DNA from: Cyclobacteriaceae bacterium
GTDB lineage: Bacteria; Bacteroidota; Bacteroidia; Cytophagales; Cyclobacteriaceae
Assembly (NCBI GenBank): GCA_025055435.1
Contig: JANWWN010000032.1
Span: 1 to 34,306, forward strand
Direction: 5' to 3'
Length of the DNA stretch: 34,306 nucleotides
Part shown: piece by piece, positions 17,993 to 34,306 of the stretch
How the letters are laid out: every line of letters starts with the position of its first letter
Position numbering within the stretch: the first letter of the stretch is position 1
Program-made: the position numbers and the translations under genes
Notes under the pieces: model-generated
Told to the model about the DNA's origin: nothing
Database searches by the model: none
What the model saw: the letters and a program-made list of their open reading frames with translations, nothing else

Positions 17993-19174
17993 TTAGTAGA
18001 CCAATTTTGCAACATACAAGATATTCTTTTCTGTCAGCTTAGGATCAACTTTAAAAATCAAACGATCAAAGCTTTCCGCATAAACCAGATGACGCAGTCG
18101 ATACGGTTGTTTTATGTCATCAAAAAGCTTATTTCCTTCGAGGCTATAAAATTGCAAATAACTATCTCGTCTGAAATACATATACTTTAATGTATTCAAG
18201 TCGTCCGGCAGATTTTCATCATGAACAGGCGCCTCGTATTGTTTCGTAATAACCAGGTTGAAATCGCTGGTGTAAAATGAATGAAACGTGAGATAGTTTA
18301 ATGCATTTTGTTTTATATTATATTTTACGTAATCAGTACCAAACTGCTTGTCTGCCTGACTGAATGATACGCCTTTTGCTTTGGGAAAATAACCGGAATT
18401 TCCATTTATTTTACGAACCAGTTCTCCCACTCTGTTATACAGGTAAATACAATCTTCATGGGCAAAAACTACTGCATAAAAATTATTGGGCAACTTGTTG
18501 ATACAGGGATCCAACGGACTTAAAAAAAATTGCTGACCTAAATATGGACTGCCTTCTTCATACGGAATATAATGTTTGTAAATATTTAAATCGGGCAAAT
18601 GTACGGTAAGCAATCTCGCATTTTTGTAATAATCAGGGTTTGTCATGTAATAGTATTTATCGCTGCGTCCCAAATACTCAAACACCAACCTCTTTGAGGT
18701 GTCCCGGTAAACATTCAGATAATTGTAAAAAATGGAAAACGTATTTAGAGGATCATTTTTAATGACATTCCAGCTATTTACATAATTACCTTCTTTGTTG
18801 AATAACAGTATTTTACCACTTTGGTAATCTGCAACAAAGATTGAGTCTGGCGAAAGCGTACTAATGCCGACTGGCAAATAGTAATTTTCTGGTGCGTATC
18901 CTTTTGTCCCAACCTTTCCTATATAACTTCCATCACTGCGAAGGAGGTAAACCTGTCCATTGTTAGCCAATGAAATAATATATCCTGACTTAAAGTTGTT
19001 CATCTTAAAATACAAAAAAGAAACCGAATCCGGTTCTAAAAAAATACTGTCTGTAATAACTAGTTCGGCTTTCTGCTGCGAATGAAAAAAACTATCATTC
19101 TCACTTTTTTTTCTGCAAAATGTAAATGAAAAGGCCAAGAATATGGACAAAATTAAATTCAGTTGGTTATTCAT
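17993..19174 (-). CDS. 6-bladed beta-propeller lipoprotein (BF3164/PF17170-like)
   Basis: 393 residues. The N-terminus MNNQLNLILSIFLAFSFTFCRKK is a signal peptide with a weak lipobox (F-T-F-C) placing the lipidated Cys at about residue 20. The body repeats propeller-blade elements. VYLLRSDGSYIGKVGTKGYAPENY is followed by SIFVADYQSGKILLFNKEGNYVNSW, matching the pattern of 6-bladed propellers of Bacteroidota (strand, D/G turn, then G-x-G-x-x-P-x-E-Y). Expected place is the outer membrane or its surface; the ligand is unknown. No cysteine peptide precedes it, but a decayed piece of the common leader does (19221-19274). Confidence 0.75.
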   Translation of the reverse strand: MNNQLNLILSIFLAFSFTFCRKKSENDSFFHSQQKAELVITDSIFLEPDSVSFLYFKMNNFKSGYIISLANNGQVYLLRSDGSYIGKVGTKGYAPENYYLPVGISTLSPDSIFVADYQSGKILLFNKEGNYVNSWNVIKNDPLNTFSIFYNYLNVYRDTSKRLVFEYLGRSDKYYYMTNPDYYKNARLLTVHLPDLNIYKHYIPYEEGSPYLGQQFFLSPLDPCINKLPNNFYAVVFAHEDCIYLYNRVGELVRKINGNSGYFPKAKGVSFSQADKQFGTDYVKYNIKQNALNYLTFHSFYTSDFNLVITKQYEAPVHDENLPDDLNTLKYMYFRRDSYLQFYSLEGNKLFDDIKQPYRLRHLVYAESFDRLIFKVDPKLTEKNILYVAKLVY

Positions 19175-19220
19175 ACTGTGAATTTTATAAAATTTAGGGC
19201 CTCAACATTTTCCCCCACGT

Positions 19221-19274
19221 TCAAAAGGTGAATGTTGATCCGAAATAAATAGCCTGTTATGAATTTTACAAATT
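19221..19274 (-). repeat. Degenerate fifth copy of the leader repeat (promoter part only)
   Basis: About 54 bases align with the promoter-proximal part of the four full repeats. Shared blocks on the plus strand include AGGTGAATGTTGATCCGAA, AAATA-CCTGTTA and GAATTTTACAAAT. The hairpin-forming part and the palindrome are missing. It lies about 47 bases upstream of the propeller gene starting at 19174, in the same orientation as the others. Confidence 0.75.
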
Positions 19275-19362
19275 ACGACCCATGATTTATCTATAAGCTA
19301 TTTTGGCCTTAAAACATAACAACCGGCATTTATTCAGGCGGAAGTCAACCAATTATGAGTTA

Positions 19363-19795
19363 CTAAGGACGAAGCAGATAGCCTTCAAAACTTAGCATCG
19401 CAGGAGAGTTCAAAAAATTTCCATAAATAAGTATATCCGAGTAAAAATAGCCAAATCGTTTCTTAGTATAAGCCACCGAAATTAGAAGCGAGTCGCCTGG
19501 AGGCACAGAAGCACCTATTCCTGACAGTGTAGTACAATCACAGGAAACTTCAATATTTTCTATAAAAAGAGTGTCTAAACCCACATTATGTACATAAAAC
19601 TGTGTTTTAGCCTGGTTAAAGTCTTTAATTTTACCTAAATTAAATTTTCTATTTTTTATATGTATCTGAGTGTTTTTTTTTTAACATCATCTTAGTTTGC
19701 GACTTCTCAAAGTCACGCTTTCGGCTCAGTATGGAGTAAATTAAAACCGCCACCGACAAGATAAAAAAAGTAACCACACTAACTCTTTTGATCAT
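19363..19795 (-). pseudogene. DUF1573-domain protein interrupted by a frameshift in an A10 tract
   Basis: An ATG at 19795 opens MIKRVSVVTFFILSVAV, a membrane anchor or signal peptide, and runs to a ten-A tract (19673-19682 on the plus strand as T). The frame then stops within 30 bases. Removing one A joins it to a frame that continues KNRKFNLGKIKDFNQ, then IENIEVSCDCTTLSG and PPGDSLLISVAYTKKRFG, to the stop at 19363. That is a complete small DUF1573 domain (the S-C-x-C-T motif is diagnostic), 143 residues in total. The start overlaps the upstream propeller gene by 17 bases, which supports the reading. It may be a pseudogene, a sequencing error, or a gene read by slippage. Confidence 0.7.
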
Positions 19796-20993
19796 ATTGT
19801 TCTTTCAATTTGAATCGCATGACAATAGGTGTTTCAAAAGATTTCATATTCTCCGTTAAGGTCCGATGCAATACTAAATCAATTTCCTTAATTTCTTTTA
19901 GAGCTGCATCTTTATCTGAAGAAATATAATCTGTAAAGTGTTCTACATCAGTAGCAACATAGTAACAATCACAGGAAAGTGAATAAGTAGGCAAATTATA
20001 GGGTCCGATAAAAAACATTTTTGTAAAAGCGTCGGATTTTTTCCCACTTCCATGTCTCAGATTGAAATGGCCAAAAATTTGTCCGCTCAAAAGCTTTAGG
20101 CCCAATGTAAATCCATACTCAGAGCCCTCTTTAAAGCTGTAGTAGAATAAAATTTCTTTTTCTTTTTTCCCTATCATAAATCTTGATAGTATGTGTTGCG
20201 ACATCCATTTTTTCGGATTAAGAAAATCAGCATGGTCAAATATTAAGTCTTCCGACCGGCCATCGGGAATATTAACTTTTATTCTTTTTTCATTGATAAA
20301 CTCGTTATAATAATAAATAGAACTTGACAATGGATAGGAATAAAAATTACCCACAACAAAACCCGTATAATCCATGGGCACAAGCTCCTTGCCCAAAGGA
20401 TACTGCATAGTCTTTCTAACAAGTATTCCGCTCGTGTCATAAATGTGAAGAATATGTCCATTCTCATCATCATATCCAAGATATAAGGCAAAATTACCCG
20501 ATTTTAGAACGGAAATTTGGTAACCCCATTTACCGATGCGCATCTTCTTTATGTGTTTCAAAGTACTGTCAAATTCGATGATCGCCTGATCCGGCCTGGA
20601 AAAAATAACTATTCTATTGCTTAAATAATTTATATCGAAATCAGTAACTTCTAAATACTCTTTTGGACCTGAACCCTTTTTGCCAACCTTGCCCAGATAA
20701 GTTCCTGTTAATGAATATGCAACTAACTCCTTTTTATGTCGGTCTAAAACCAAAATTTTATTATTAAATTCTAAAATTTTTTGAGCCGATGAAAGGTAAA
20801 AACTGTCTGTTTCTTTCAGTTTAATGTACTCGACTTCACTAAGAAGATCCCTGATGCTTATGAGCTGTTCTTGTTTTGGTATATTTGAAATATCAATAAA
20901 CTCCTCATATACATTTACATCTGATTCCCAACCCGAACTGGTGCAACATAAAAAAAATGTACCAACCAAAATAACTATGAAATACTTTACCAT
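19779..20993 (-). CDS. 6-bladed beta-propeller lipoprotein, partner of peptide 1
   Basis: 404 residues from the ATG at 20993 (MVKYFIVILVGTFFLCCTSS), a signal peptide with a lipobox-like F-L-C-C. An in-frame reading from 21089 is open but would place two hydrophobic stretches before the lipobox. Blade motifs are clear: KILVLDRHKKELVAYSLTG, then YLGKVGKKGSGPKEYLEV with the G-x-G-x-G-P-x-E-Y turn of BF3164/PF17170 proteins, then NRIVIFSRPDQAIIEFD. The gene follows peptide 1 (21096-21314) across a 102-base gap holding a strong hairpin, and overlaps the DUF1573 gene by 17 bases. It is probably an outer-membrane lipoprotein; its binding partner is unknown. Confidence 0.8.
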   Translation of the reverse strand: MVKYFIVILVGTFFLCCTSSGWESDVNVYEEFIDISNIPKQEQLISIRDLLSEVEYIKLKETDSFYLSSAQKILEFNNKILVLDRHKKELVAYSLTGTYLGKVGKKGSGPKEYLEVTDFDINYLSNRIVIFSRPDQAIIEFDSTLKHIKKMRIGKWGYQISVLKSGNFALYLGYDDENGHILHIYDTSGILVRKTMQYPLGKELVPMDYTGFVVGNFYSYPLSSSIYYYNEFINEKRIKVNIPDGRSEDLIFDHADFLNPKKWMSQHILSRFMIGKKEKEILFYYSFKEGSEYGFTLGLKLLSGQIFGHFNLRHGSGKKSDAFTKMFFIGPYNLPTYSLSCDCYYVATDVEHFTDYISSDKDAALKEIKEIDLVLHRTLTENMKSFETPIVMRFKLKEQYDQKS

Positions 20994-21043
20994 ACAGAAT
21001 TGAACAACCCCAAATGATAAGCTGACAAACCGAAACATAAGAA

Positions 21044-21080
21044 AATATATCTTACAAGATAAAATCTCGTAAGATATATT
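21044..21080 (-). terminator. Intercistronic hairpin between peptide 1 and its propeller
   Basis: AATATATCTTAC (21044-21055) pairs perfectly with GTAAGATATATT (21069-21080), and an inner AGAT/ATCT pair extends the stem. On the minus strand the stem is followed by TTTCTTATG, a U-rich tail. It fits a partial terminator or a 3' stabilising end for the peptide message. Confidence 0.6.
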
Positions 21081-21095
21081 CTTTAACATGAACTA

Positions 21096-21314
21096 TCATT
21101 GAATTGGACTACATTGATCACATGTATGGTCACGACAAGATTTTTGACCACTCACGCAATTATTACAATAAAATCCACCACTACATATTGTAGAAACATA
21201 TTGCTTGGTACCTCCCTCCAAAGCATATGTATTTACAGGAACAAAAGTAATGATAGTACTAATTAAGAGCAGGATCATCCCACAAGTTAAGAGAATATTA
21301 AACTTCGCTTTCAT
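21096..21314 (-). CDS. Secreted cysteine-rich peptide 1 (NVEALA-like)
   Basis: 72 residues. A lysine-containing start and a long hydrophobic segment (about residues 7-28) form a signal peptide or anchor. NTYALEGG, then a short cysteine-rich tail with six Cys (ICSGGFYCNNC, SCRDHTCDQC), make up the mature part. N-x-x-A-L-x-G-G at this place resembles the motif of the Bacteroidota NVEALA peptides (PF14055 from memory), which are also small, secreted and often next to propeller lipoproteins; the exact motif is not present. It is the first gene after leader repeat copy 1, with the repeat edge 18 bases above the ATG. Function unknown: a matrix, signal or bacteriocin-like role would all fit. Confidence 0.75.
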   Translation of the reverse strand: MKAKFNILLTCGMILLLISTIITFVPVNTYALEGGTKQYVSTICSGGFYCNNCVSGQKSCRDHTCDQCSPIQ

Positions 21315-21357
21315 AAAACATTGTTTAAGTATCCACCCACCCCTCCGGAGCAGTTCT

Positions 21358-21385
21358 CCCGCTGTCCCTTCGGACGACCGGCGGG
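21358..21385 (-). ncRNA. Conserved 5'-leader hairpin (candidate cis-regulatory RNA)
   Basis: On the minus-strand transcript an outer stem CCCGC/GCGGG encloses an inner stem GTCC/GGAC closed by a GAAG loop. The same fold is possible at 26225-26252, 32045-32072 and 33907-33934. The outer stem there is CCUGC/GCGGG (a G-U pair in place of G-C), and in copy 3 the inner stem is GUUC/GGAC (again a G-U pair), so both substitutions keep pairing. It lies 45-70 bases before the peptide start codon. A role as regulatory RNA is inferred. Confidence 0.55.
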
Positions 21386-21479
21386 TGATCTGTATAAAGG
21401 TGAATGTTGATTCGAAGTAAATAACCTGTTAGGAATTTTACAAATCAATCTGCACTTTTTTCTTACATGGTGTTTATTC

Positions 21480-21495
21480 GTTAACCCGGGTTAAC
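21480..21495. promoter_or_regulatory. Perfect 16-bp palindrome, candidate operator
   Basis: GTTAACCCGGGTTAAC is a perfect inverted repeat. It recurs at 34029-34044 (perfect) and at 26347-26362 (one mismatch), always in the same place, roughly 40 bases upstream of the TTTG of the leader promoter. It is absent from the shortened copies 3 and 5. A regulator-binding site is the natural reading. Confidence 0.5.
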
Positions 21496-21527
21496 TTTCT
21501 GCGTTTTCAGGGCATCTGAGCGATTTA

Positions 21528-21546
21528 ACACACACACACACACACA
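21528..21546. repeat. CA dinucleotide microsatellite in leader copy 1
   Basis: Nine CA units in copy 1. The equivalent place holds about six AC units in copy 2 (26393-26404) and three CA units in copy 4 (34080-34084). The length varies between copies, and the tract lies upstream of the palindrome. Confidence 0.85.
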
Positions 21547-21796
21547 TTAAAAATGTTACAAAAACACACAAAATCTTACATCTATTCCAAAAATTTTTAC
21601 TTGACTTATCCCAGGTATAAGTCCTTTCTTCTCGCATGATGACCATTCAGTTCACCAGCTTATCTGGTGTACTCTTTGAGCATGATATAAATGACAAGAA
21701 TCTTTTAGTCATGATGTGTTCTTGCCGGAGCTTTTATTTTACGCTGTTCCTCAACAATCATATCAAAACGTGAAAAGGAGGTTTTAACGAACAGGA

Positions 21797-22135: not shown

Positions 22136-22843
22136 TTATTCCATATTTTTTTCCTTTGAAATTAGCTGATACCCTGTGAAGTCCCTATTTACCGTATCAA
22201 CATTAACATTCATTTTTGTCAGTATATCAGTTAATGTAATGCCGGATGCTTCATCCCATTCCAACTTACCGTTCCACGCCAGCGAATCATTTTCGGAAAA
22301 AAAGTTTGTATGGTAACGCCTGTTTAAAAAATCAGACAAGAAAGAAGGTGTCGGATTGATAATTACAACAGCGGAATTACTGTTTTGAATAAGCTTATTA
22401 AATTCAGTAAAAGTTGATACGGGAACGCTTTTTTCGAAAGTTATCATGAGGGCCGGTTCACTTGTTTTATGGGTTATTACGGAAAGGTCCCATCCTTTAG
22501 CAAGCAGTTTAATAATACGATCGTAATTAACCGGCCTGTTGTTTTTGAAGTAAGCAGTAAGGTTAAAGTAACCATTAGGATTAAATGATGAGTCTTTTTG
22601 AATTTTAACCCGGGCCATGCGCTGGATTTCCGAAAGAATTTCATCAGCCGTATATCCTTTAAATTCCACACGCGCCGGTCCTTTTGAGGAGGCCTTTACC
22701 GGTTTTTGCGATACCGATGCGATTTCAAAGAATAATTCAGCATCATCCACTGAAAGAATTACTCTTTCGTCTGACAGGTTTTCGTTTGTGCGACATCCGC
22801 TACTGAATAGGATAATACACAAAAAGAAAATTTTTGCCTTCAT
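22136..22843 (-). CDS. Lipoprotein with STN/DUF3738-like domains (second in operon)
   Basis: 235 residues. Signal peptide MKAKIFFLCIILFSSGC with a textbook lipobox S-S-G-C, so Cys17 is lipidated. Two alpha/beta units follow. ARVEFKGYTADEILSEIQRMARV with FNLTAYF is about residues 57-95, and the second unit ends in WNGKLEWDEASGITLTDILTKM. The pattern G-x-x-x-x-x-h-h-x-x-h-x-x-x-h then h-x-h-x-h resembles the secretin/TonB short N-terminal (STN) or DUF3738 fold. It overlaps the upstream propeller gene by 44 bases. It is similar in plan, though not in detail, to 24028-24750. Function unknown; an envelope interaction module is likely. Confidence 0.55.
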   Translation of the reverse strand: MKAKIFFLCIILFSSGCRTNENLSDERVILSVDDAELFFEIASVSQKPVKASSKGPARVEFKGYTADEILSEIQRMARVKIQKDSSFNPNGYFNLTAYFKNNRPVNYDRIIKLLAKGWDLSVITHKTSEPALMITFEKSVPVSTFTEFNKLIQNSNSAVVIINPTPSFLSDFLNRRYHTNFFSENDSLAWNGKLEWDEASGITLTDILTKMNVNVDTVNRDFTGYQLISKEKNME

Positions 22844-23933
22844 AGGTGATTTTTCTTTTCAGGTTATTTAATGATGTATCTAAAGGTTCAAAAGAATTTT
22901 TCAACAAATTATTCTCATTCAAAACTCCAATCAACAGGTCAGGAGTAATCAGTTCAGGAAAAGGAAGATTCCTGCCCAGCGAATGATTTATTTTTTTTGT
23001 GCAAAACTTTCTTCCCGATATCTTATCATGGTAATAAAATGCCGGTTGTCCATCAGCAATAAACTGAAAAACCTGAAACCGGTCGTTTTCCCTGAAAAAG
23101 AAAATGCCCGTATTATATTTTTTGTTTTCCATGATCATCTTCATTCTCTCAAACTCGTTTTTTATATGAGCATATTTCGCATAGTTCACCTTATTTTTAA
23201 AATCAATGTATTTATACAATTGAAAATTGCCGTTTGATGCATTGAAGTAAAAAACCGTATCACAAAAAGGCTTAATGTAAAAAATGGTTTTCTCCTGTTT
23301 CAAAATAGACTGTCCATTGCTGAGAATGGTGTTACTTTCATTCTGAATAACATACGGGTCGAAATGATTTGTGTTTCGATATGTATTTAAATCCAGAATT
23401 TGAATTCTATAGAATACCTTCGTCCCCGGTTCTATTCCTACGAGATTGTCTTTTTTCAGAAAAAGGAAGCCATCAGCCGATGTTTCTATTTCTGTAAATT
23501 TATTATCATCCAGCTTAGCTGAGCTGACCAAACTAAATTTTTGAAGATCGTATACATGCACTTCATCCCTGGTGCTTAAAATATAAAGAAACGGATAGGA
23601 AACACTGAAGTCAACCGGATTGATTTTTAATTCTTCAAATTCAATTTGTTTAATCAGCTTATCAATGGAAAGGTCATAAACCAATAATTCTTTTTTATCC
23701 GCATCGTTTGCCAGATACAAGTAGTTGTTTTCCGACCAGCGGATTCGGGTAATATTCAAAGGTTTATCCGTTTCTATCTCCTTGATAACCGGCCTTAAAA
23801 ATTCCGACACATCCACTTCATCATCAATTTTACTTATCCCAATAATCTGCGGATTGTTGGTATCATGGGGTCTAAAAGAGCAGGATAGGGATAATAAAAA
23901 ACAGAAACTAATCCGGATAATGAAACTACCCAT
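22800..23933 (-). CDS. Divergent beta-propeller lipoprotein
   Basis: 377 residues. Signal peptide MGSFIIRISFCFLLSLSC with lipobox S-L-S-C. Blade-like repeats are less regular than in the other propellers: NNYLYLANDADKKELLVYD, FLYILSTRDEVHVYDLQKF, KVFYRIQILDLNTY. The G-P-x-E-Y turn is missing, so the fold is inferred from these strand/turn repeats, length and context. It sits between two STN-like genes in the operon led by peptide 2: 94 bases after 24028-24750 and overlapping 22136-22843 by 44 bases. Confidence 0.6.
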   Translation of the reverse strand: MGSFIIRISFCFLLSLSCSFRPHDTNNPQIIGISKIDDEVDVSEFLRPVIKEIETDKPLNITRIRWSENNYLYLANDADKKELLVYDLSIDKLIKQIEFEELKINPVDFSVSYPFLYILSTRDEVHVYDLQKFSLVSSAKLDDNKFTEIETSADGFLFLKKDNLVGIEPGTKVFYRIQILDLNTYRNTNHFDPYVIQNESNTILSNGQSILKQEKTIFYIKPFCDTVFYFNASNGNFQLYKYIDFKNKVNYAKYAHIKNEFERMKMIMENKKYNTGIFFFRENDRFQVFQFIADGQPAFYYHDKISGRKFCTKKINHSLGRNLPFPELITPDLLIGVLNENNLLKNSFEPLDTSLNNLKRKITYEGKNFLFVYYPIQ

Positions 23934-24027: not shown

Positions 24028-24750
24028 CTACTTACTATTTACTAAGTAAATCTTTTTCAACCTCGTATCCTGATACATTTTAATGCCATATTTTAGCTCC
24101 AAAATTCGATCAACATCCGGCAATGACTCAAATTCAAATGCATAACGTTTCCCATCATCATTACCATTTAAAATTATTGAATATCCCTTCCTTTCGGCAA
24201 GCCAGTCGGCCAAATTAGTTAATGTAAAACCCTTAAGTGAAATTTTTCCCGCAGTTGAAACATGGGCTGACCGCAATGTGCCGGGTTCTTTGGATTTATA
24301 AATATAGGCAGAGAGTTTTAAAGGATTTTCAATGTGTAGTTGACCAGTTGTTAATTTTTCCCCGGTTTCCGTGACTGAAAAATTATACCACTCTGCGAGG
24401 GAGGTTAAGACAGGATGCCAAAGGTTTTCAAAATTGCCCGAAGGAAACTCTATTCTGAAAGCAACATGTGGATTGTGTTCAAGGCTTTTTATTATTACCG
24501 TATTACCAGTGTTTCTGGCTAAGGTAAATAAGGCATCTGAAAGCCTGTAACCTTTCACCTCAATGAATCTTTCACCTTTATCGAGACCTTTAGCGTTGTA
24601 GGGATTGTTTATGATTTTAAAAATTTTTATTGTAAAGCCTGTTCCGGTTATGCTTTGTTGATATTGTAAAATCGGATCTCCGACATCATCCTGACTGAAA
24701 ACCGGTTTTATTAGTATTGTAAAGATTACCAATATGTTAATTACTTTCAT
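24028..24750 (-). CDS. Secreted STN/DUF3738-like protein (first in operon)
   Basis: 240 residues. A cleavable signal peptide (MKVINILVIFTILIKPVFSQ, no lipobox cysteine) makes it a soluble periplasmic protein, unlike its lipoprotein counterpart. Unit one is IEVKGYRLSDALFTLARNTG (about residues 62-82), and unit two is ISLKGFTLTNLADWLAERKG (about 168-188) followed by YAFEFESLPDVDRILE. The latter is close to the DUF3738 pattern in which a x-G-h-x-h-x-x-h-A-x-x-L stretch is followed by h-x-F-x-h-E. It starts 15 bases after the stop of the propeller 24766-25887, so the two are surely co-transcribed. Confidence 0.55.
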   Translation of the reverse strand: MKVINILVIFTILIKPVFSQDDVGDPILQYQQSITGTGFTIKIFKIINNPYNAKGLDKGERFIEVKGYRLSDALFTLARNTGNTVIIKSLEHNPHVAFRIEFPSGNFENLWHPVLTSLAEWYNFSVTETGEKLTTGQLHIENPLKLSAYIYKSKEPGTLRSAHVSTAGKISLKGFTLTNLADWLAERKGYSIILNGNDDGKRYAFEFESLPDVDRILELKYGIKMYQDTRLKKIYLVNSK

Positions 24751-24765: not shown

Positions 24766-25887
24766 TTAAACCTCTATAATCACTAAATAAGTCTTCCCAT
24801 CCTGAATGACGCTATCAATAATAGGGTGTATATTACTATAATTTTTTAAACCAAGATCTTCATAATGCTGCCCATCCAACACCATAACCCAGTAATTATC
24901 TGACTGAATGGACGGGAAGGGAAGAAGCAGATCACGACCATGCAGTGAAACTTTGAGTTCATCCATGCAATAGGTTAAATTTTTCTCTTTATCAACCAGG
25001 GTAAATCTGACCTGATTTTTTAAAATATATCGCCACCCTGTCCATTTTTTACTTTCGAGTTTTTTATTATTTATCAAGGAATAATTCGGAAAAATTTCTT
25101 CCATTACAACTTTTGGATTAGTTAAATCGAGCTGCCGTAGAACTTCATCGTTTAGATGATAGTTCAAAAAAACGATGGGCAGAGTATATAAACCGCGAAG
25201 GGTATCGTAAACATAATGATAATTACTTAAAGGCTGAAAAAACTCAAAGCCTCTTTTCGTAACATTTAAAGGGTCACTGAAAAAGGTCCAGACCCGCGGC
25301 AGATTTTTTTCAATAGTGAATTGGAATAATCTTCTCTTTACATTAAAATCATGATCCGTAATCAAAATGTTGTAGTAATATTCCTTCTTTTCTCTGGGCT
25401 GTTTGTTTTGGTTTTTAAAGACAATAAAACCATCTCCGGTTTTATAAATTCTGTGACAATAAAATTCAGAATGTCTGAAGCTTTCTAAACTGTAATCTGC
25501 ATTGAAAAAAAAGAAACCCTGATTAGCCGCATCATAAAACATCAATTTGCCATAATGATCGGTTATTAAACAAATGGGTTGAACAGGATTACCGTTTTGC
25601 AAATAATCTCCGTTGATACTCGTTATTAACCGGCCCTGACGGTCAAAAATTTCAATTTTCTGAAGAACTTTGTCCAAAACAAAAATTCTATTTTCATCAA
25701 CGATAACCTGGTCTACAGTACTAATTAAGGAGTTTAATTCCACAAACTGCCATCCTGGAAACAGCTCATGAAGGTCATAGCTCTTAAAATTTTCATTCCT
25801 TATAAAATGCCCTTCATGTTCTTCATATTTGCACTGACAGAAGGTTAAAAAGATTATAAAATTCAGTACTACGTGGACCAATTTCAT
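24766..25887 (-). CDS. 6-bladed beta-propeller lipoprotein, partner of peptide 2
   Basis: 373 residues. Signal peptide MKLVHVVLNFIIFLTFCQC with cysteines at 17 and 19, the latter likely lipidated. Blade repeats include QVIVDENRIFVLDKVLQKIEIFD followed by RQGRLITSING, then ITDHYGKLMFYDAANQGFFFFN. The strand / D-turn / IxxFDxxGxhI pattern is typical of PF17170-like propellers. The C-terminal KTYLVIIEV strand would close the ring. The gene lies 74 bases after peptide 2 with a hairpin in the gap, and heads propeller-STN-propeller-STN. Confidence 0.7.
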   Translation of the reverse strand: MKLVHVVLNFIIFLTFCQCKYEEHEGHFIRNENFKSYDLHELFPGWQFVELNSLISTVDQVIVDENRIFVLDKVLQKIEIFDRQGRLITSINGDYLQNGNPVQPICLITDHYGKLMFYDAANQGFFFFNADYSLESFRHSEFYCHRIYKTGDGFIVFKNQNKQPREKKEYYYNILITDHDFNVKRRLFQFTIEKNLPRVWTFFSDPLNVTKRGFEFFQPLSNYHYVYDTLRGLYTLPIVFLNYHLNDEVLRQLDLTNPKVVMEEIFPNYSLINNKKLESKKWTGWRYILKNQVRFTLVDKEKNLTYCMDELKVSLHGRDLLLPFPSIQSDNYWVMVLDGQHYEDLGLKNYSNIHPIIDSVIQDGKTYLVIIEV

Positions 25888-26180: not shown

Positions 26181-26198
26181 GATTAATTTGATTGTATT

Positions 26199-26439
26199 TC
26201 CACCCACCCCTCCGGAGCAGTTCGCCCGCTGTCCCTTCGGACGACCGGCAGGCTAACTGTATAAAGGTGAATGTTGATTCGAAGTAAATAACCTGTTAGG
26301 AATTTTACAAATCAATCTGCATCATTTTCTTACACGGTGTTTATTCGTTAATCCGGGTTAACTTTCTGCGTTTTCAGGGCATTTGAGCGGTTACACACAC
26401 ACATCAAAAAAGTGATAAAACCGCACACAATCTTACATC
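26199..26439 (-). repeat. Leader repeat copy 2
   Basis: Full-length copy, colinear with copies 1 and 4 over about 240 bases. Hairpin stems are at 26225-26229 and 26248-26252, and the palindrome (one mismatch) is at 26347-26362. On the far side the RND permease starts divergently at 26507, so this 326-base gap holds promoters for both directions. No -7 box could be fixed with confidence for the permease. Confidence 0.92.
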
Positions 26440-26506: not shown

Positions 26507-29500
26507 GTGTTGAGCCCGTTTAAAACCATCCTGCTTTTTGTGCTTACCGCCCTCATCGGCTGGGCGCTGGTACCCCGCCTGTCGGTGGATTTGCAACCCA
26601 GCACCATGCCACCGGCTCTCACCGTAACTGCATCACTGCCCCATGCCCCGCCCGAAACGGTAGAACAGGAAGTAACCGCGCCACTGGAAAATGCTTTCTC
26701 TGCCCTGCCACAGCTTAAATCCATTTACTCCATATCGCATTACGGCAGCAGCACCATTGAGCTGAGTTTCGACCGCCATGCCGATATGGCCCTGAAAAAG
26801 TTTGAAGTCAGCTCGGCCATTCGTCAGTTGTATCCCAGACTCAACCCGGGTGTTTCTTTCCCGACTGTAGAACAACGTACCCGTACCAATGCCCGGAAAA
26901 ATCCACTGCTGATCTACCGCATCAATGCCCGGCTGGCGCCTTACCAGATCCGTCAGCTAACCGAAGAAAAACTGGCCGTTAACCTCAGACAGATAAATGG
27001 CGTTCATGACGTGCAGATCAGCGGTGCAGAGCGCATCCGGGTGATTATGGCCTTCGACCCTGCCCGGCTACTTCAGTTCGGACTCACTCCGGAAGACTTT
27101 CGCAACGTAATAACCCGTGAATTTGGCACCTCGTTTCCCGGAGCGGTTTACACGGCTGCCGGTGAAAAGTTTTCCGTGCAACTTTCACACCCTGTTGCCA
27201 CACTTTCCGAACTTGAAAATGCACCGCTCAACCTGAATAACGGGGTTATTGTTCCGCTTAAAAAACTCGTCAGCATTTATCTGGAAGAAGACCCTCCCCG
27301 CCAGCTGTTTCGCATCAACGGTCGCAACTCCATCAGCCTCAGTATTTATTCCGATGAACGTGTAAACCGTCTGGCCCTGGCCGGCAAGCTGAAGCAAGCC
27401 ATGGACGAACTTCGGACACAACTGCCACAGGGTTTTGAAGTTCAGCTGGATGTTGACGATACGGAGTTTCTGTCTCGCGAACTCCGCAAGAATACCTTCA
27501 GGGCCGGTTTGTCGATGGGTATTCTTATTCTTTTTATAATGATTAGCTATCGGAGCTTATCCTATTTGCTTATTCTTTTCTCCGGTATTTTTATCAGTCT
27601 GGGCATCACCGCATTGTTCGCCAACCTGCTGAACATCTCCATACACCTGTACACCATTGCGGGCTTAACCATATCCTTTGGTTTGTTACTCGATAATGCC
27701 ATTGTTGTGATGGATCATTTATACCGTCGGCCCGATGGTAAAATCGGGCTGGCCGTGATGGGGGCAACACTCACCACCCTCATTGCCCTGCTGGTGATAT
27801 TATTCCTTCCGGAAGATGAGCGGGCTAACCTTACGGAGTTTTCCGTTATTGTAAGCCTGGCCTTAGGCAGCTCGGTTTTAACGGCTTTGTTTTATACGCC
27901 TGCCGTCTTTGCCCGGTTTAACCTCATATCGGCTTACGGAAAAAGATTTACCCTAACCCAATTGCGCAGAAGGGTAAGGATGATGCAAAGATATGGCCAC
28001 TTCATAACCTTACTGGTGCGCTACCGAAAGCTGGTGTGGGTAGTGCTGATTTTGATGTTTGGGCTGCCCATCTTCCTTTTGCCAACATCCTTACCGGGTT
28101 ATGAGTGGTATAACCAAACACTGGGCAGCGAATGGTACCAGGATAACCTGCGGCCCTATGTTGACCGGTTCACCGGTGGCGCGTTACGTTTATTTATCCG
28201 CAATGTTTATGAACGCAGCGGTTATCGTGAGCCCGAACGCACCCGGTTGTATGTGTACGCCGAGCTGCCGCAGGGGCACACTTTACAGGACATGGACCGC
28301 ATCATGCAGGACACAGAAGGTTTTCTTTCTGATGCAGAAGGTGTGGAAAATTTCATCACCCAGATTTACTCCGGACAACATGCTTCCATCACTGTATCAT
28401 TTACTCCGGCAGCCGAACGCTCGGCCATACCTTTTCAACTCAAGGCACGGCTTATTGCCCGTTCGCTCGACTGGGGCGGCGTTCAGTGGAACATATTTGG
28501 TGTGGGGCAGGGCTTCAGTAATGCATCGTGGGATAACCTGCCCTCGTTCCGGGTTGAAATGACCGGTTATAATTATCGCGAACTTGAACGACAAGCCACT
28601 ATACTGGCAAATAAATTACTGGAGCACAAACGTATTCAACAGGTTAACACCAATGAACGCCTTAACTGGGATGAAAAAGCCGTCGATCAATGGGTGCTTA
28701 GTTTAAATCACAGTAAAATTCAGGAACACCATATTAACGGGAACACCGTAGTAAATGCCTTGCAGTGGACAGGCGAACGCCCTACGCCCGACCTTCAACT
28801 GGCTCTTAATAACCGCTTTATTCCTTTGTACATTGTGCCATTGGGTGATAAGCAACCCGATATCTTCAGGGTGTTAAATGAACCGCTCCGGGCAGATAAA
28901 AGAAAAGCCATCCAACCGGGAAGTGTTGCCGAATTCAAAAAAGAAAAAACTGCCAGTGCCATTCATAAAAAAGACCGGCAGTATATACGCATCGTGGGTT
29001 TTGAATATTACGGCAGCCATAAGTTCGGCAACGAATTTCTGGATGAAAAGCTCAAAGAAATGGAGAACGAAATGCCTGTAGGATATTCAGCTAAGAAAAT
29101 TTCATGGACCTGGTCGTGGGAAAAAGTTAAGCGGCAATACAGCCTGCTTTTAATTTTGTTTACCGGCGTATTTCTGATTTGCGCCATACTTTTCGAAAGC
29201 CTCAAACAACCGCTGCTCATCATGGGCATTATTCCTTTTTCATTTATCGGATTGTTCCTCACCTTCGCCTGGGGCGAATTATACTTCGACCAGGGCGGGT
29301 ATGCGGCATTCTTTCTGGTGGGCGGGCTGGCCGTTAACTCAGCTATTTTTGTCGTGAATGATTTCAACGGCCAGCGGATAAAAAATCATAACCGGGCAGT
29401 GCTTAAGGCGGTTACCGGCAAGCTCCGGCCGGTTTTGTTAACCACATTATCAACCTGTTTGGGTTTAACTCCTTTTCTTATTGGCGGCCAGCATGAAATA

Positions 29501-29611
29501 TTCTGGTACGCACTGGCAGCCGGCACCATTGGCGGACTGATGTTTTCCGTATTGCTGATTGTTACCATACTGCCTGTATGGATGTTTAAAAAATCCAATC
29601 TGAATAATTGA
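26507..29611 (+). CDS. RND (AcrB/CusA-like) efflux permease without partners
   Basis: 1034 residues from a GTG at 26507 (TTG at 26510 is possible), the full length of tripartite-pump permeases. Layout is standard: helix 1 at the N-terminus, a large porter loop, helices near residues 335-480, a second loop, and helices from about 880 to 1025. Helix 4 reads ISFGLLLDNAIVVMDHL: aligned by eye to AcrB, the Asp407 place is kept but the Asp408 place is Asn. In helix 10, LAVNSAIFVVND lacks the Lys940 equivalent. It therefore probably couples protons differently or exports an unusual substrate. No adaptor or TolC gene is adjacent; only TolC tail fragments occur at 32154 and 34178. Confidence 0.88.
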   Translation: MLSPFKTILLFVLTALIGWALVPRLSVDLQPSTMPPALTVTASLPHAPPETVEQEVTAPLENAFSALPQLKSIYSISHYGSSTIELSFDRHADMALKKFEVSSAIRQLYPRLNPGVSFPTVEQRTRTNARKNPLLIYRINARLAPYQIRQLTEEKLAVNLRQINGVHDVQISGAERIRVIMAFDPARLLQFGLTPEDFRNVITREFGTSFPGAVYTAAGEKFSVQLSHPVATLSELENAPLNLNNGVIVPLKKLVSIYLEEDPPRQLFRINGRNSISLSIYSDERVNRLALAGKLKQAMDELRTQLPQGFEVQLDVDDTEFLSRELRKNTFRAGLSMGILILFIMISYRSLSYLLILFSGIFISLGITALFANLLNISIHLYTIAGLTISFGLLLDNAIVVMDHLYRRPDGKIGLAVMGATLTTLIALLVILFLPEDERANLTEFSVIVSLALGSSVLTALFYTPAVFARFNLISAYGKRFTLTQLRRRVRMMQRYGHFITLLVRYRKLVWVVLILMFGLPIFLLPTSLPGYEWYNQTLGSEWYQDNLRPYVDRFTGGALRLFIRNVYERSGYREPERTRLYVYAELPQGHTLQDMDRIMQDTEGFLSDAEGVENFITQIYSGQHASITVSFTPAAERSAIPFQLKARLIARSLDWGGVQWNIFGVGQGFSNASWDNLPSFRVEMTGYNYRELERQATILANKLLEHKRIQQVNTNERLNWDEKAVDQWVLSLNHSKIQEHHINGNTVVNALQWTGERPTPDLQLALNNRFIPLYIVPLGDKQPDIFRVLNEPLRADKRKAIQPGSVAEFKKEKTASAIHKKDRQYIRIVGFEYYGSHKFGNEFLDEKLKEMENEMPVGYSAKKISWTWSWEKVKRQYSLLLILFTGVFLICAILFESLKQPLLIMGIIPFSFIGLFLTFAWGELYFDQGGYAAFFLVGGLAVNSAIFVVNDFNGQRIKNHNRAVLKAVTGKLRPVLLTTLSTCLGLTPFLIGGQHEIFWYALAAGTIGGLMFSVLLIVTILPVWMFKKSNLNN

Positions 29612-29754: not shown

Positions 29755-30524
29755 TTAATATTTTCTCACCTCGTAAACCGCAAAAATCATTTCTTCATCA
29801 CTGAAAATAGAATTAAGCGGGGATGGAGTTGAATATCCGTTCAGATATACATTCGGAAAATAATTTGTTCCCAGAAATGCATAGGGCAATTCACCAAATA
29901 CCATGGCTGTGTCCGTGTAAATGTTATACCGGCAATGCTTCATGGTAAGCTGGGCTGATCTGTTTTCAAGTATTCCGTTGTAAATCCAAAACCCTATGGC
30001 TTTTGTTTGCGGGTAGTAGGCAAATTCGTAAAACAATTTGTTGGTACCCCAGTAATCTTCTTTGTCATGAGGCAGGACAGAATGAATGCGACTCACCAAA
30101 TCGCCTTTACTGTTATAAATTTTCACCGAATTCATTTGCTCGGAATAAATAAAAAATATTGAGTCATCATTATGATAATAAAACCTGCCCGGATTATCGA
30201 TACTGTTCGGGCCTTCAGTCGGGAACTGTATGGAAAAGGATAATTTTCTTTCATTTAAATTATAGCCATATAGTCTGGATGTATATGAATTGTAAATCAG
30301 ATAATGGAGTGATCCATTGTACAGAATACGCTGATCATAGTAGTGCTGACTTTGCGTAACCGAGTCAACCGGCAGGGCTATGGTGTCAACAAGCACTAAA
30401 CCTGCTTTGAGAGATGATGTTCCGACTTCCTGCAACTGCCGGTTTTTTCAGGGTTCGTACATGACACAAAAAGAACAAAACTTAAAAATAATCCGGCCGA
30501 TTTTATAAAAAGCAGGAATTTCAT
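29755..30524 (-). pseudogene. DUF4221-like lipoprotein, frameshifted and shortened
   Basis: The ATG at 30524 opens MKFLLFIKSAGLFLSF and a lipobox F-V-S-C, but the frame leaves the body at an A6 tract (30443-30448 as T). One extra A would join it to the frame read from about 30437 to the stop at 29755. That frame contains YNSYTSRLYGYNLNERKL, then FPTEGPNSIDNPGRFYYH with a DDSIFFIYSEQMNSVKIYN stretch, the DUF4221 pattern of E-G-P-x-x-I-x-x-x-x-x-F then D-S-I. The restored product would be about 256 residues against about 390 for relatives; the C-terminal FAVYEVRKY strand is present, so the missing part is internal. It follows the propeller 30630-31796. Confidence 0.65.
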
Positions 30525-30629: not shown

Positions 30630-31796
30630 CTAAATCTGTAATTCGTATTCAACAACCGCATACGGAGCATCCACAACTAATCCATACAGCCGCCCTCTCT
30701 CCTCATCAATAACAAACGATATGATATCTTCGTCCAACTCAAGGATTTTTTTTACTGTACCCGCTTGACTAAAAACATATATGTACCTGCTAAGATGTGA
30801 ATTCCATTCCTTGTCCTGACGGTAGCGTCTTAAACTTAATATGTAATTACTGGTTACCTGCGGGCTGGAATAGCCTGCATAACATTCACTGCAAGGCAGC
30901 CCCTGACCCGCCTTATTTAGTTTATAACGGGGCGGAAAATTCTGTTCGGGTCCAATTATCCGGTATCTCAACGCACGGCTTTTCATGTCAAAAACCTCGA
31001 TGCAATCAACACGCAAGTACGCTACAACAAGACTCTGCCTGTCAGAACTCAAACAGATACCATGACTAAATAAATTTGATAATACATTGACCCGATATTC
31101 AGTATGCGTCATATTTTTTATTTCCCGGGTATGTTCCAAGTCCGGATATTCACCAAAATACTCCGGTGAAAATTCAAACCGATGATTTAGTATATTGAAC
31201 CGACCTCCGTGGCCTAACTCCGATGTGCTAAGATAGGTCGAATCGCTGTGATTAATTATAGATAAAGGCGTATCAGTTGTGTACGTCCATCGCAAACGCT
31301 TGTAAAAACGCGGTTGGTGGACACTGTATGCTAAGCTGTCTAAGTGCCCCTGCAATAAACGGCGCTCCTGAGTATCATAAAAATAAATATTTCTGTGCCC
31401 ATCCGTTACGATAGAAGATATGGATTGTATTTCGAAAGGACCATTTCCTTTAGGCATCATCACCCTGAGAAGGCTATCCTTACTCAGACTATATACTGCC
31501 AATATACCTTCTCTGTGATTGAGATCAACGATTAATAAGTTATTCTCTATTCTGAACATCCATAGTGGCGTGTAAAAACCTGGTATGGTTATGGTCCGAA
31601 GTAATTTTAATTTAACCGTTTCCGGCAGGTCTTTGCGGCTAAACCTTATCTCTTTAAAATTACGCTGCTCTTTTTCTGAAGTCGTACAAGAAACCATCAA
31701 GCCACACCCCCATACCATGATAGTCAGACGACAAAACAGGCGGAAAGTTTTTCCGCCCGTTTCAAATATGTCGCGGTAATTATGGAATGTCAGCAT
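30630..31796 (-). CDS. 6-bladed beta-propeller lipoprotein, partner of peptide 3 (BF3164-like)
   Basis: 388 residues from the ATG at 31796, which overlaps the stop of peptide 3 by 17 bases; further upstream reading is open but lies inside the peptide gene. The signal peptide lies after a short hydrophilic stretch (RLFCRLTIMVWGCGLMVSC), lipobox M-V-S-C. Blade marks: NNLLIVDLNHREGILAVYSL, then MPKGNGPFEIQSISSIV (the G-x-G-P turn), then NIYFYDTQERRLLQG. The C-terminal part has a CxxC-like pair GLPCSECYAGY near residue 300. Presumed outer-membrane lipoprotein. Confidence 0.75.
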   Translation of the reverse strand: MLTFHNYRDIFETGGKTFRLFCRLTIMVWGCGLMVSCTTSEKEQRNFKEIRFSRKDLPETVKLKLLRTITIPGFYTPLWMFRIENNLLIVDLNHREGILAVYSLSKDSLLRVMMPKGNGPFEIQSISSIVTDGHRNIYFYDTQERRLLQGHLDSLAYSVHQPRFYKRLRWTYTTDTPLSIINHSDSTYLSTSELGHGGRFNILNHRFEFSPEYFGEYPDLEHTREIKNMTHTEYRVNVLSNLFSHGICLSSDRQSLVVAYLRVDCIEVFDMKSRALRYRIIGPEQNFPPRYKLNKAGQGLPCSECYAGYSSPQVTSNYILSLRRYRQDKEWNSHLSRYIYVFSQAGTVKKILELDEDIISFVIDEERGRLYGLVVDAPYAVVEYELQI

Positions 31797-32001
31797 TGCG
31801 AAAACCAGGAATACGTAAAGTTTCCTCCCTGCATCCATTAATCCCGTCACAATTACAACACCACCATACCACTGTGCAATTGTTCTGATCAGATGCGCAG
31901 GTGTCCCCACCCGAAGCAACCGATTCCGTTGTAACTGCAAGTCCTCCGATTATGAAAAACACGGTTACGGCCAGCATTGCTTTTACTTTTCGTTTAATCA
32001 T
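31780..32001 (-). CDS. Secreted cysteine-rich peptide 3 (NVEALA-like)
   Basis: 73 residues from the ATG at 32001 (MIKRKVKAMLAV); a start three codons upstream is equally open. The basic start and hydrophobic core end in TTESVASGG, a pattern parallel to the -EAAGG and -ALEGG of peptides 2 and 1. The mature part carries six Cys, including WWCCNCDGINGC. Unlike the other three, no hairpin separates it from its propeller; instead the two genes overlap by 17 bases, so translation is probably coupled. It is headed by leader copy 3. Confidence 0.75.
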   Translation of the reverse strand: MIKRKVKAMLAVTVFFIIGGLAVTTESVASGGDTCASDQNNCTVVWWCCNCDGINGCREETLRIPGFRNADIP

Positions 32002-32018
32002 AAAACACATTTTTTATC

Positions 32019-32158
32019 TCCACCCACCCCTCCGGAGCAGCTCTCCCGCTGTCCCTTCGAACGACCGGCAGGTGAACTGTATAAATGTGAATGCTGATTC
32101 GAAGTAAATAACCTGTTGTAATTTTTACAAATCAACCTGCGCTTTTTTCTTACATGGT
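32019..32158 (-). repeat. Leader repeat copy 3 (shortened)
   Basis: Matches the peptide-proximal 140 bases of the other copies, including the hairpin (32045-32072, with a G-U pair in the inner stem) and the promoter-like stretch. It breaks off at TTACATGGTG, where the other copies continue with TTTATTCG. From there the sequence is the TolC tail. The palindrome and CA tract are lost. Confidence 0.92.
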
Positions 32159-32231
32159 GGCCGCTTACTTCGACCTGCGAAGACTTACGTTGTATGATTT
32201 TTCGGAAGGTAAGCCACTGCCGATTAAATAA
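32154..32231 (+). pseudogene. TolC-family C-terminal tail, copy A
   Basis: An ATG formed by the repeat edge (32154) runs in frame into AAYFDLRRLTLYDFSEGKPL and a stop after 25 residues. (A/Y)xxYxxRRLTLYDF is the typical last helix of Bacteroidota TolC-like outer-membrane efflux proteins. Everything else of that gene is missing. About 56 bases are identical to the tail at the window end. A remnant left by deletion is more likely than a real mini-gene. Confidence 0.65.
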
Positions 32232-32382: not shown

Positions 32383-33570
32383 TTAAAAATATCTGAGGTC
32401 AAGTCTGGTAAAAATTATTGAATCTTCTCCCACCCGGTCATTATTTGGATGACACTCGGATAAATACAGACCCTTTTTGTTTATGAAGAAATTAGCAGCA
32501 TAAAATCTTTCATCAGGAAGCTTTGTTTCACCTATCCAGTTAAAATCTGAATCCAATATAACAATGACTGTTTTTGATGGGAATCTGGCGCTTTTCATCA
32601 GGTCCTGCGATATCAATTCCTCTTCTTCAGGCAGGTAAACCCATCTATAGTAAACTTTTCTATGCAGATCAAACAGAATAGTGCTGTATCTCCCGCTCCC
32701 GGCTATATATTTCATGTAATCCTGCATGGTCTGTTCTTTGGGTAAATTCTGAATATTCTTTAAGTAAGAAGTGCCTGCATAATGTTTGGAATAACCTAGA
32801 TGGTCAGCTGTAACATAAATATATTCATCTCCCCAAAAAGAGTATATAAAATGTTGGCCGTCAAAAATGCGTCCAAATACAGGCTCCTTTCTGCCATTTT
32901 GCCAATAATCAGAAGGGTATCCCCAACTAAGTTTGCTAACCTTTTTTGACATCGTATCCAGCTCAATACAAATCCTGGTATTAACAAAATCACGCTCTGA
33001 AATTTGTAACCAGTTGCCTTCAACCATACCGGGCAAATAAAACTTACCTCCAACCAAATCCAGCTCCTTATAGGGATCCATGCCAAGTCGAACAGGATAA
33101 ATTAATTCACCGTCAATACTTGTTCTGTAGCTATATGATTGAAGAATTTTTCCTTTGCCATCAATTAGAAAAATCTTGCTTATTTGCCGGGAGGTGATCA
33201 AAATGGAGTCCGGTGAATAAACTTTAAATCCCTGAATAGTCCCTGCTCCATCCGGGCCTTCAACGGGAACCCTTATCCGATGTATCGGATTTTCCTTTTT
33301 TGCATCATAAATCAGAATTTCATTTTTAACTCGATTTAAAAAAAACAGCAGTTCCTTATCATGATGATTAAGATACTGAATATAATCGAACCGGTTAAGA
33401 GTGGAAGAGTCAGCATGCAGGATAATTTTATCATCAGTAATCATTAAACTGGCCTTCGCTACCCGTGCAGAACTCTCGGAAGATTGGTTTATGCAACCAG
33501 CTATGTAAGCTGTCAGGGCTACAATAACTATACTTAAAATCACTGAAATTTTTAAGTTAACATGGTTCAT
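32383..33570 (-). CDS. DUF4221-family lipoprotein, partner of peptide 4
   Basis: 395 residues. Signal peptide with a good lipobox (AYIAGC, lipidated Cys26). The N-terminal half has FLNRVKNEILIYDAKKENP, then RIRVPVEGPDGAGTIQGFKV with a PDSILITSRQISKIFLID stretch, which is the DUF4221 signature (E-G-P-x-G-x-G-x-I-x-G-F then D-S-I). DUF4221 proteins are predicted beta-propellers of Bacteroidota with unknown role. The gene is single after peptide 4, from which it is separated by 90 bases containing a perfect 12-bp hairpin. The 151 bases after its stop hold nothing recognisable before the TolC tail. Confidence 0.78.
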   Translation of the reverse strand: MNHVNLKISVILSIVIVALTAYIAGCINQSSESSARVAKASLMITDDKIILHADSSTLNRFDYIQYLNHHDKELLFFLNRVKNEILIYDAKKENPIHRIRVPVEGPDGAGTIQGFKVYSPDSILITSRQISKIFLIDGKGKILQSYSYRTSIDGELIYPVRLGMDPYKELDLVGGKFYLPGMVEGNWLQISERDFVNTRICIELDTMSKKVSKLSWGYPSDYWQNGRKEPVFGRIFDGQHFIYSFWGDEYIYVTADHLGYSKHYAGTSYLKNIQNLPKEQTMQDYMKYIAGSGRYSTILFDLHRKVYYRWVYLPEEEELISQDLMKSARFPSKTVIVILDSDFNWIGETKLPDERFYAANFFINKKGLYLSECHPNNDRVGEDSIIFTRLDLRYF

Positions 33571-33642: not shown

Positions 33643-33660
33643 CTTCGAAATCGCAAAAAA

Positions 33661-33861
33661 TTATTTCTTAGGTTTAATTACAGGACCATCATCATCACAA
33701 GCAGTACATCCAACAAAGCCTGATGGGTCGCAGCCATACTCATAATCGAACCAACAAGTTGGCACAGACTGAGCTCTGCTGTATGGTAAAATTAATAAGC
33801 TCAAAAAAAAAGCTACAACAATGCCAGCCATCAGGAGGATAGACTTTTTTAAAATTTTCAT
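33661..33861 (-). CDS. Secreted cysteine peptide 4
   Basis: 66 residues from the ATG at 33861 (MKILKKSILLMAG); an earlier in-frame ATG at 33885 lies inside the conserved leader and is disfavoured. The hydrophobic segment ends in YSRAQ, a likely signal-peptidase site. The short mature part has four Cys in PTCWFDYEYGC and GCTACDDDG, and a basic tail IKPKK. It lacks the glycine pair of peptides 1-3. It is headed by leader copy 4 and followed by a hairpin, then the DUF4221 lipoprotein gene. Confidence 0.72.
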   Translation of the reverse strand: MKILKKSILLMAGIVVAFFLSLLILPYSRAQSVPTCWFDYEYGCDPSGFVGCTACDDDGPVIKPKK

Positions 33862-33880
33862 AACAAATTTGTTACAAGTA

Positions 33881-34119
33881 TCCACCCACCCCTCCGGAGC
33901 AGTACTCCCGCTGTCCCTTCGGACGACCGGCAGGTGAACTGTATAAAGGTGAATGTTGATCCGAAGTAAATAACCTGTTAGAAATTTTACAAATCAATCT
34001 GCACTTTTTTCTTACATGGTGTTTATTCGTTAACCCGGGTTAACTTTCTTCGTTTTCATGGTATCTGAGAGGTTTCCCACACACTAGAAATGTTACAAAA
34101 TCAATCAAAATCTTACATC
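33881..34119 (-). repeat. Leader repeat copy 4
   Basis: Full-length copy with hairpin stems at 33907-33911 and 33930-33934, a perfect GTTAACCCGGGTTAAC at 34029-34044, a short CA run and the AAAATCTTACATC end block. Divergently, on the plus strand, it faces the short frame at 34178. Confidence 0.92.
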
Positions 34120-34177
34120 GGGTTGTTAAATTTTTTTCAGCCTGAATTTATCCTGTAACATTAATGGCAGTATAATT

Positions 34178-34306
34178 ATGCCGTATGAACAACAACCCCC
34201 TCACAGCTGTGTGCAGGCCCTGCGCAGTTTTTGGGCCGCTTACTTCGACCTGCGAAGACTTACGTTGTATGATTTTTCGGAAGGTAAGCCGCTGCTGAGT
34301 AAATAA
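34178..34306 (+). pseudogene. TolC-family C-terminal tail, copy B, joined to a foreign start
   Basis: An ATG at 34178, preceded by TATAAT, opens MPYEQQPPHSCVQALRSFW and continues in frame into the same AAYFDLRRLTLYDFSEGKPL tail as at 32154, ending in LSK and the stop at the last base of the window (42 residues). The first dozen residues do not resemble a TolC protein; VQALRSFWAAYF onward does. It looks like the product of an internal deletion, although it is an intact small frame with a possible promoter. Beyond it the window ends. Confidence 0.6.

Follow-up and report, generated by a model that had tools for sequence, protein, structure and literature searches.

The window analysed here is the whole of contig C26 (34,306 bases) of a Cyclobacteriaceae genome, G000, made up of 100 contigs that total 2.79 Mb. 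Four cassettes of one build lie on the minus strand of the window between 19.8 and 34.1 kb, and in each of them a leader is followed by the gene of a signal-bearing cysteine peptide and then by a propeller gene. Two more cassettes, together with a further leader cut by the contig end, lie at the end of contig C56 of the same genome. A first-pass annotation of the window had described four units with a shared leader, a cysteine peptide of 66–73 amino acids (aa) and a propeller or DUF4221 lipoprotein; this description was confirmed, and to it were added the C56 cassettes and, in the window, a copy of the leader block that has only the promoter. The leader copies in the window, all on the minus strand, are at 21321–21536, 26188–26403 (91% identity), 33870–34085 (92%), and 32008–32223 (69%), the last value being low over 216 nucleotides (nt) because the leader covers only about 160 nt there (31998–32159). 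The cassettes are composed as follows.

33881–33953, minus strand: leader RNA copy w34, a 74-nt structured 5' untranslated region (5'-UTR); homologous block with promoter at about 33857–34135
33661–33861, minus strand: signal-bearing peptide (w34), 66 aa, 4 Cys after the signal
32383–33570, minus strand: DUF4221 six-bladed propeller lipoprotein, 395 aa (Pfam E=4.4e-33; AlphaFold predicted local distance difference test, pLDDT, 79.9; Foldseek match 3s9j, template-modelling (TM) score 0.78)
32019–32091, minus strand: leader RNA copy w32, upstream part truncated (homology 31998–32159)
31780–32001, minus strand: signal-bearing peptide (w32), 73 aa, 6 Cys after the signal
30630–31838, minus strand: TolB_like propeller, 402 aa (Pfam PF15869, E=1.8e-13)
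29755–30435, minus strand: second DUF4221 propeller of cassette w32, probably broken (signal/lipobox-like start, by eye, in another frame at about 30396–30524)
26199–26271, minus strand: leader RNA copy w26, divergent from an RND gene
25962–26180, minus strand: signal-bearing peptide (w26), 72 aa, 4 Cys after the signal
24766–25887, minus strand: DUF5128 propeller lipoprotein, 373 aa (Pfam E=5.5e-9)
21332–21404, minus strand: leader RNA copy w21; block with promoter at 21310–21600
21096–21314, minus strand: signal-bearing peptide (w21), 72 aa, 6 Cys after the signal
19779–21089, minus strand: DUF5128/DUF4934 propeller lipoprotein (Pfam E=1.2e-21 for DUF5128)

The leader, previously taken as a shared element of 140–250 bp, is real, but its description had to be corrected: judged from its sequence, the block is a promoter followed by a structured 5'-UTR RNA. 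The core is a 74-nt RNA with covarying base pairs, present in 19 copies in 4 of the 17 genomes sampled from the genus (G002, G009, G011, G013, G014, and G016 are, like G000, members of it). In the alignment of these copies (76 columns), the consensus fold comprises two stems, one outer and one central, together with a small hairpin. Changes on both sides are seen in six of its pairs; such cells number 26, compared with 9.5 in shuffles, of which none of 500 reached the observed count, and the fold scores worse when it is slid along the alignment. None of the 10 outer-stem pairs shows a both-side change in this alignment, and a single copy folded alone is moderately better than shuffles (z −2.2). 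Nothing in the window exceeded a gathering cut-off of Rfam 15, two leader regions giving only matches below it; one of a leader to SCARNA7 (E=0.0014, far below the cut-off of that family) fell in the T/G-rich upstream part and was taken as chance. The possibility of a tRNA was discarded, as no tRNA was found.

Across the 17 genus genomes, a covariance model of the leader matched exactly the 19 places used to build it, and no other genus was positive among 245 sampled genomes of the family, a sample for which G013 was not drawn and stricter filters were used. Exact matches to the leader pattern in the genome_contigs collection were confined to the Cyclobacteriaceae metagenome-assembled genomes KatS3mg032 and ACE_BAC7 (records near the window may be missing), and viral_contigs held none. 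The sequence TCCGGAGGGGTGGGTGGA occurs four times in the window (0.02 expected) and exactly six times in G000, always in cassettes. A genome-wide repeat was therefore rejected, since elsewhere in the genome only four places match, each with three mismatches.

Upstream of most copies there is a TTTG...TTAYTTCG-like motif, which is less clear in g13_8 and g13_9 (G013) and in g16a and g16b (G016). The motif resembles the Bacteroidota promoter TTTG/TAnnTTTG, as it appears in an excerpt of PMC6847099, with two mismatches in the second half; judging by it, transcription would start at about the first base of the leader. The GGAGG inside the leader sits roughly 30 nt before the start codon, probably too distant for ordinary ribosome binding. 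A 16-bp palindrome, GTTAACCCGGGTTAAC, was also seen about 75 nt upstream of the G000 leaders, four of its occurrences being exact and the other two carrying a single mismatch (window 21480–21495, 34029–34044, and 26347–26362; 4600–4615, 9644–9659, and 7882–7897 of L009, the L-numbers denoting fetched loci). It was not seen in the aligned G013 leaders and is possibly a regulator site.

Intact open reading frames (ORFs) of 62–73 aa with cysteines and a signal (by eye) follow 17 of the 19 leader copies after a gap of 17–29 nt, the spacing being 17–22 nt in 16 of these 17 cassettes and 29 nt in g16c. Behind the four full leaders of the window, the gap is 17–19 nt, and the signal peptides there look ordinary by eye. 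The two damaged cases are g13_5 (L025 12810–13160), whose frame has no start codon (ATG, GTG, or TTG), and the truncated g13_8. Leaders lying mainly away from peptide genes had been named beforehand as an outcome that would count against the first-pass annotation; none of the 19 hits in the genus lies so, the two damaged genes included. After residue 18, all 17 intact peptides have an even number of cysteines (2, 4, or 6), and the same is true after residue 25. No Pfam or NCBIfam family was found for the 16 leader-borne peptides searched (g13_2 not included). Two payload types recur: type A, with the pattern GTLMGN...FCCA.GTN.C, in G000, G014, and G016, and type B in G000 and G013.

A propeller-family gene lies downstream of all 19 leader copies, 18 being called by Pfam over cut-off (g13_8 partial) and g13_2 being counted as a near-copy of g13_1. 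By profile, these downstream proteins are members of DUF4221 (PF13970), DUF5128 (PF17170), or TolB_like (PF15869). In the window, DUF5128 was assigned to 19779–21089 and 24766–25887, TolB_like to 30630–31838, and DUF4221 to 32383–33570, the last by both profile and fold, as the structure nearest to the model of this protein, the one propeller modelled, is the DUF4221 protein 3s9j (PDB). The co-variation of peptide and propeller, which the first-pass annotation had proposed to check, was found: over 16 cassettes, peptide similarity is correlated with propeller similarity (Mantel r=0.58; 0.62 for between-genome pairs; p=0.0008, permuted inside genomes), with g13_2, g13_5, g13_8, and the leader cut by the contig end dropped, the first as a near-copy and the next two for having no intact peptide. 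This correlation rests mainly on the few shared payload types, the two named A and B.

Pairs of peptide and propeller also occur without the leader, in G002 within the genus and in G077, G151, G193, and G158, which, like G134, represent other genera of the family. Outside the genus, a propeller stands behind the type-A-like peptides of G151, G193, and G158 and of L067, L068, and L070 (Pfam-tested), and the genes behind those of L069 and L071 have the appearance of propellers; type-A matches in G111 and G141 were judged spurious from their surroundings. Outside the order, the same layout occurs with NVEALA peptides. As the pair is seen in G002, in other genera, and outside the order, it is widespread, and the special part is the array with its leader RNA.

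The tandem multiplication noted earlier, with one shared leader and different signal-bearing peptides, each with its own propeller, is borne out by the sequence. Promoter and leader have a mean identity of 92% over the 15 pairs of G000 and of 81% over the 36 pairs of G013, where the lowest value is 55%, while three pairs between G000 and cassettes of the shared types A and B elsewhere give 56–61%. Leaders are thus homogenised in G000 and most of G013 but not in G016, recombination being the probable cause. Remnants of a TolC gene lie at the 5' side of the leaders of w34 and w32 in the window and of g13_2 and g13_3 in G013. A full TolC gene faces a leader on C56 and on contig C12 of G013, and in G014 there is a TolC piece in the opposite orientation. 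The remnants are compatible with units having been duplicated together with TolC, which then decayed. Other TolC matches in the genus were set aside, since by eye the four regions read (in G002, G011, G016, and G009) show the order HlyD, ABC-permease, TolC of a MacAB-type operon and do not represent the array TolC. In the recent duplicate g13_1/g13_2, the peptide shows three amino-acid and no silent changes in 67 codons, all at positions 45–49, and the propeller four amino-acid changes and one silent change in 403 codons, a suggestive pattern with counts too few to test selection.

The remaining features of the array and its surroundings are the following.

24028–24750, minus strand: probably exported protein of unknown family, called 'STN-like' earlier (no Pfam match over cut-off; 21% identity to 22136–22843)
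22800–23933, minus strand: additional propeller-like lipoprotein, 377 aa (matches to propeller families weak and below cut-off)
22136–22843, minus strand: probably exported protein (38% identity to the G013 gene L027:4849–5319; 21% to 24028–24750)
19366–19665, minus strand: DUF1573 domain (Pfam E=1.6e-18; likely signal-bearing start in another frame)
19224–19273, minus strand: promoter-only copy of the leader block, without the RNA core
17993–19174, minus strand: propeller-like lipoprotein, preceded by the promoter-only copy (NHL of NCBIfam matched weakly, below cut-off; no Pfam match)
26507–29611, plus strand: RND efflux pump gene RND1 (Pfam ACR_tran, E=2.7e-103), with cassettes antisense on both sides
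32159–32231, plus strand: TolC 3'-end remnant, 94.5% identical to the full TolC on contig C56
34204–34306, plus strand: TolC 3'-end remnant, 97% identical to the full TolC on contig C56

The STN-like label proposed for two of these proteins is unproven: no Pfam STN match was obtained for 22136–22843 or 24028–24750, which resemble each other only weakly, and the structure model of the former (pLDDT 38.9) was unusable. The DUF1573 module, on the other hand, is present as annotated. Its gene (19363–19800, minus strand) has the signal-bearing start off-frame at a run of A; the gene may be a pseudogene or subject to frameshifting, or the assembly may have slipped there. Arrays of G013, G016, and G002 also contain small proteins, probably exported, that bear a CxxC motif (L029 4829–5284, L027 8551–9042, L025 16522–17016, and L120 5922–6503 and 8738–9343); the motif is present in 6 of 6 aligned, and their best PDB profile match is thioredoxin (E=0.0099).

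A close RND1 ortholog (53% or more) was found in 4 of the 17 genus genomes, always with cassettes beside the gene, and RND1 is common in the family, where 94 of 245 genomes have it, among them G000 and G016. In the 28 best-scoring RND loci outside the genus, a second pump gene, RND2, lies upstream on the same strand within 0–1111 nt in 22, and a propeller was detected in the 1.5-kb flanks in 2, by a search of limited sensitivity. Because RND1 is common and mostly has RND2 just upstream in these loci, the pump is taken as an ordinary one whose operon, otherwise contiguous, is split by the cassettes, which most likely entered it. G002 has two peptide–propeller–CxxC units between RND2 and RND1, with no leader RNA, and in G077 the order HlyD–RND2–RND1 is followed by an antisense peptide–propeller pair. 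G014 has a single cassette (leader, peptide, and propeller), no RND1 ortholog, and a broken TolC. These outgroup loci and G014 weaken the idea of the pump as an obligate cassette partner. When peptide-like ORFs near the RND genes of outgroups were sought with a simple signal/Cys filter, most of what it returned was antisense noise.

The closest known kind of system is the NVEALA peptide–propeller array, so that the pair itself is already known, albeit uncharacterised, and what is new here is the shared RNA leader and the operon-splitting array. A resemblance to NVEALA peptides (PF14055), brought up in the first-pass annotation, found no counterpart by profile, there being no match in G000 at E<=10 and none in the 16 leader-borne peptides at E<=0.1. 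The layout of a peptide gene beside a propeller lipoprotein gene, which is not part of the Pfam definition, is shared with NVEALA loci. Of the 345 genomes sampled from the class, 5 had NVEALA matches; 19 loci were fetched and 10 examined, and in 9 of the 10 the next gene is a lipoprotein-like ORF of 286–393 aa (L079 has a 194-aa ORF first), 4 of 4 tested being DUF4221, DUF5128, or TolB_like propellers. Both systems thus place a small signal-bearing cysteine peptide before a propeller lipoprotein, in tandem and with different mature parts, with CxxC and DUF1573 proteins nearby, and the w21 cassette (peptide, DUF5128 propeller, and DUF1573) mirrors the NVEALA layout. They differ in the conserved part, which there is a protein N-terminus with the NVEALA motif and here the promoter and 5'-UTR RNA: the aligned upstream regions of eight NVEALA genes show no such GC-rich leader, and likeness only among recent duplicates. 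They differ also in context, as the two NVEALA array regions read by eye contain CxxC/DUF1573 proteins and no RND gene, while the cassettes here interrupt an RND operon. Within or beside both of these regions there is a signal peptidase I-like gene (L121 12835–13725 and L122 265–1137, by eye). A full-text search for NVEALA in one open-access library found no paper, and the titles found there for DUF4221, DUF5128, DUF4934, BF3164, PF14055, and TIGR04149 do not concern peptide–propeller pairs.

Another point of comparison is G134, where a cysteine peptide with a double-glycine-type leader (by eye) stands before a pair of propeller-type genes next to an RND gene (L152 1908–4960); Pfam assigns the second of the pair to DUF4221. 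We take this peptide, which has no family match, to be akin to the double-glycine-leader peptides of Bacteroidota, whereas the window peptides have ordinary signals. The locus ties bacteriocin-type leaders to propellers.

It is doubtful that the cassettes are plain NVEALA-type operons, in spite of the same gene order, the nearby CxxC/DUF1573 proteins, and the arrays on both sides of the comparison, given the failure of the profile in the genome and in 16 leader-borne peptides and the leaderless upstream regions of the eight NVEALA genes aligned. We also regard as improbable that the leader block is merely a recombinogenic repeat spreading with the cassettes, its RNA fold being functionless. 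Such a repeat would agree with the very high identity in G000, which spans promoter and further upstream DNA besides the RNA, and with the neighbouring-gene remnants that accompany the block; it agrees poorly with the compensatory changes in the RNA, with the near-constant spacing to the start codon, and with the absence, among the hits in the genus, of leaders that lack a peptide gene beside them.

Export of the peptides by a dedicated RND–HlyD–TolC pump seems unlikely from the loci compared. All eight RND1, RND2, and array TolC starts examined in G000, G013, and G016 face a leader at 236–502 nt, and cassettes adjoin each close RND1 ortholog of the genus. However, this face-to-face geometry arises because the cassettes are inserted antisense, RND1 is frequent in the family, in the 28 loci fetched outside the genus RND2 mostly lies upstream on the same strand and a propeller was seen within 1.5 kb in 2, a small ORF lies between g16a and RND2, the G014 cassette persists with no RND1 ortholog and a broken TolC, and the two NVEALA arrays read have no RND gene. 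Toxin/immunity pairs, in which the peptides would be bacteriocin-like and the propeller lipoprotein would protect the producer, have a similarly small probability in our estimate. Tandem arrays of different mature peptides, each with a private partner, are what such pairs would give, and the G134 peptide with its double-glycine-type leader, before propeller genes and beside the same RND gene, and the excess of amino-acid over silent changes in the g13_1/g13_2 peptide point the same way. The counts in that duplicate are nevertheless tiny, conservation of the type-A peptide extends across genera and is higher in its mature part than in its propeller, unlike in an arms race, and PADLOC returned no match for six window proteins.

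The explanation that we favour, at about even probability, is that of expanding two-gene cassettes, in which an exported peptide is bound by its own propeller lipoprotein, under control of the leader RNA. Each cassette would comprise a promoter, the 74-nt 5'-UTR RNA, the gene of a peptide that is exported by Sec and has about 40 residues when mature, and the propeller lipoprotein gene; through the RNA, expression of the cassettes would presumably be controlled jointly, at the level of the mRNA. After export, the paired cysteines would form disulfides, as suggested by the signal, by the parity in the leader-borne set, and by the CxxC proteins of related arrays, and the propeller would be a dedicated binding partner in the envelope, as suggested by the constant pairing, the correlated similarity, and the recurrence in other genera. 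From the remnants, the array would grow by tandem duplication of leader–peptide–propeller units, sometimes with a TolC neighbour that later decays, leaders staying alike while peptides and propellers differ, as in G000 and most of G013. Several observations weigh against this explanation. The three leaders of G016 have a mean identity of 61%, and its type-A leader is 74% identical to that of G014, so that homogenisation is not general. The leader RNA is limited to the one genus and to a minority of its sampled genomes. Of the 16 cassettes, only 4 have a nearest peptide and a nearest propeller elsewhere that agree, inheritance of whole cassettes would produce a correlation with no physical binding, and L066 has two tandem type-A peptides with no propeller gene in the stretch covered. 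An even cysteine count is found in only 7 of 14 peptides without a leader (G002, G077, G134, and type-A relatives), which is chance level, and parity is therefore a property of the leader-borne set. Finally, the thioredoxin match of the CxxC proteins is weak, with none by single-sequence search and none over cut-off in Pfam.

Cognate binding of peptide and propeller is, on these comparisons, the best-supported idea of mechanism, and the broad role would most likely be that related cells recognise or antagonise one another, the propeller serving as cognate binder. More tentatively, a promoter and a regulatory RNA kept alike by recombination may stand before interchangeable pairs, giving a co-ordinated repertoire of disulfide peptides, each with its own propeller, for surface recognition or antagonism, which would diversify by duplication. 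Peptide–propeller pairs recur in several Bacteroidota lineages, and the array described here adds to them an RNA element without a match in Rfam 15. With many pairs under one element, a recent duplicate, and payload types that relatives share, the array makes regulation, export, and cognate binding directly testable and is well suited to finding out what peptides of this little-studied kind do.

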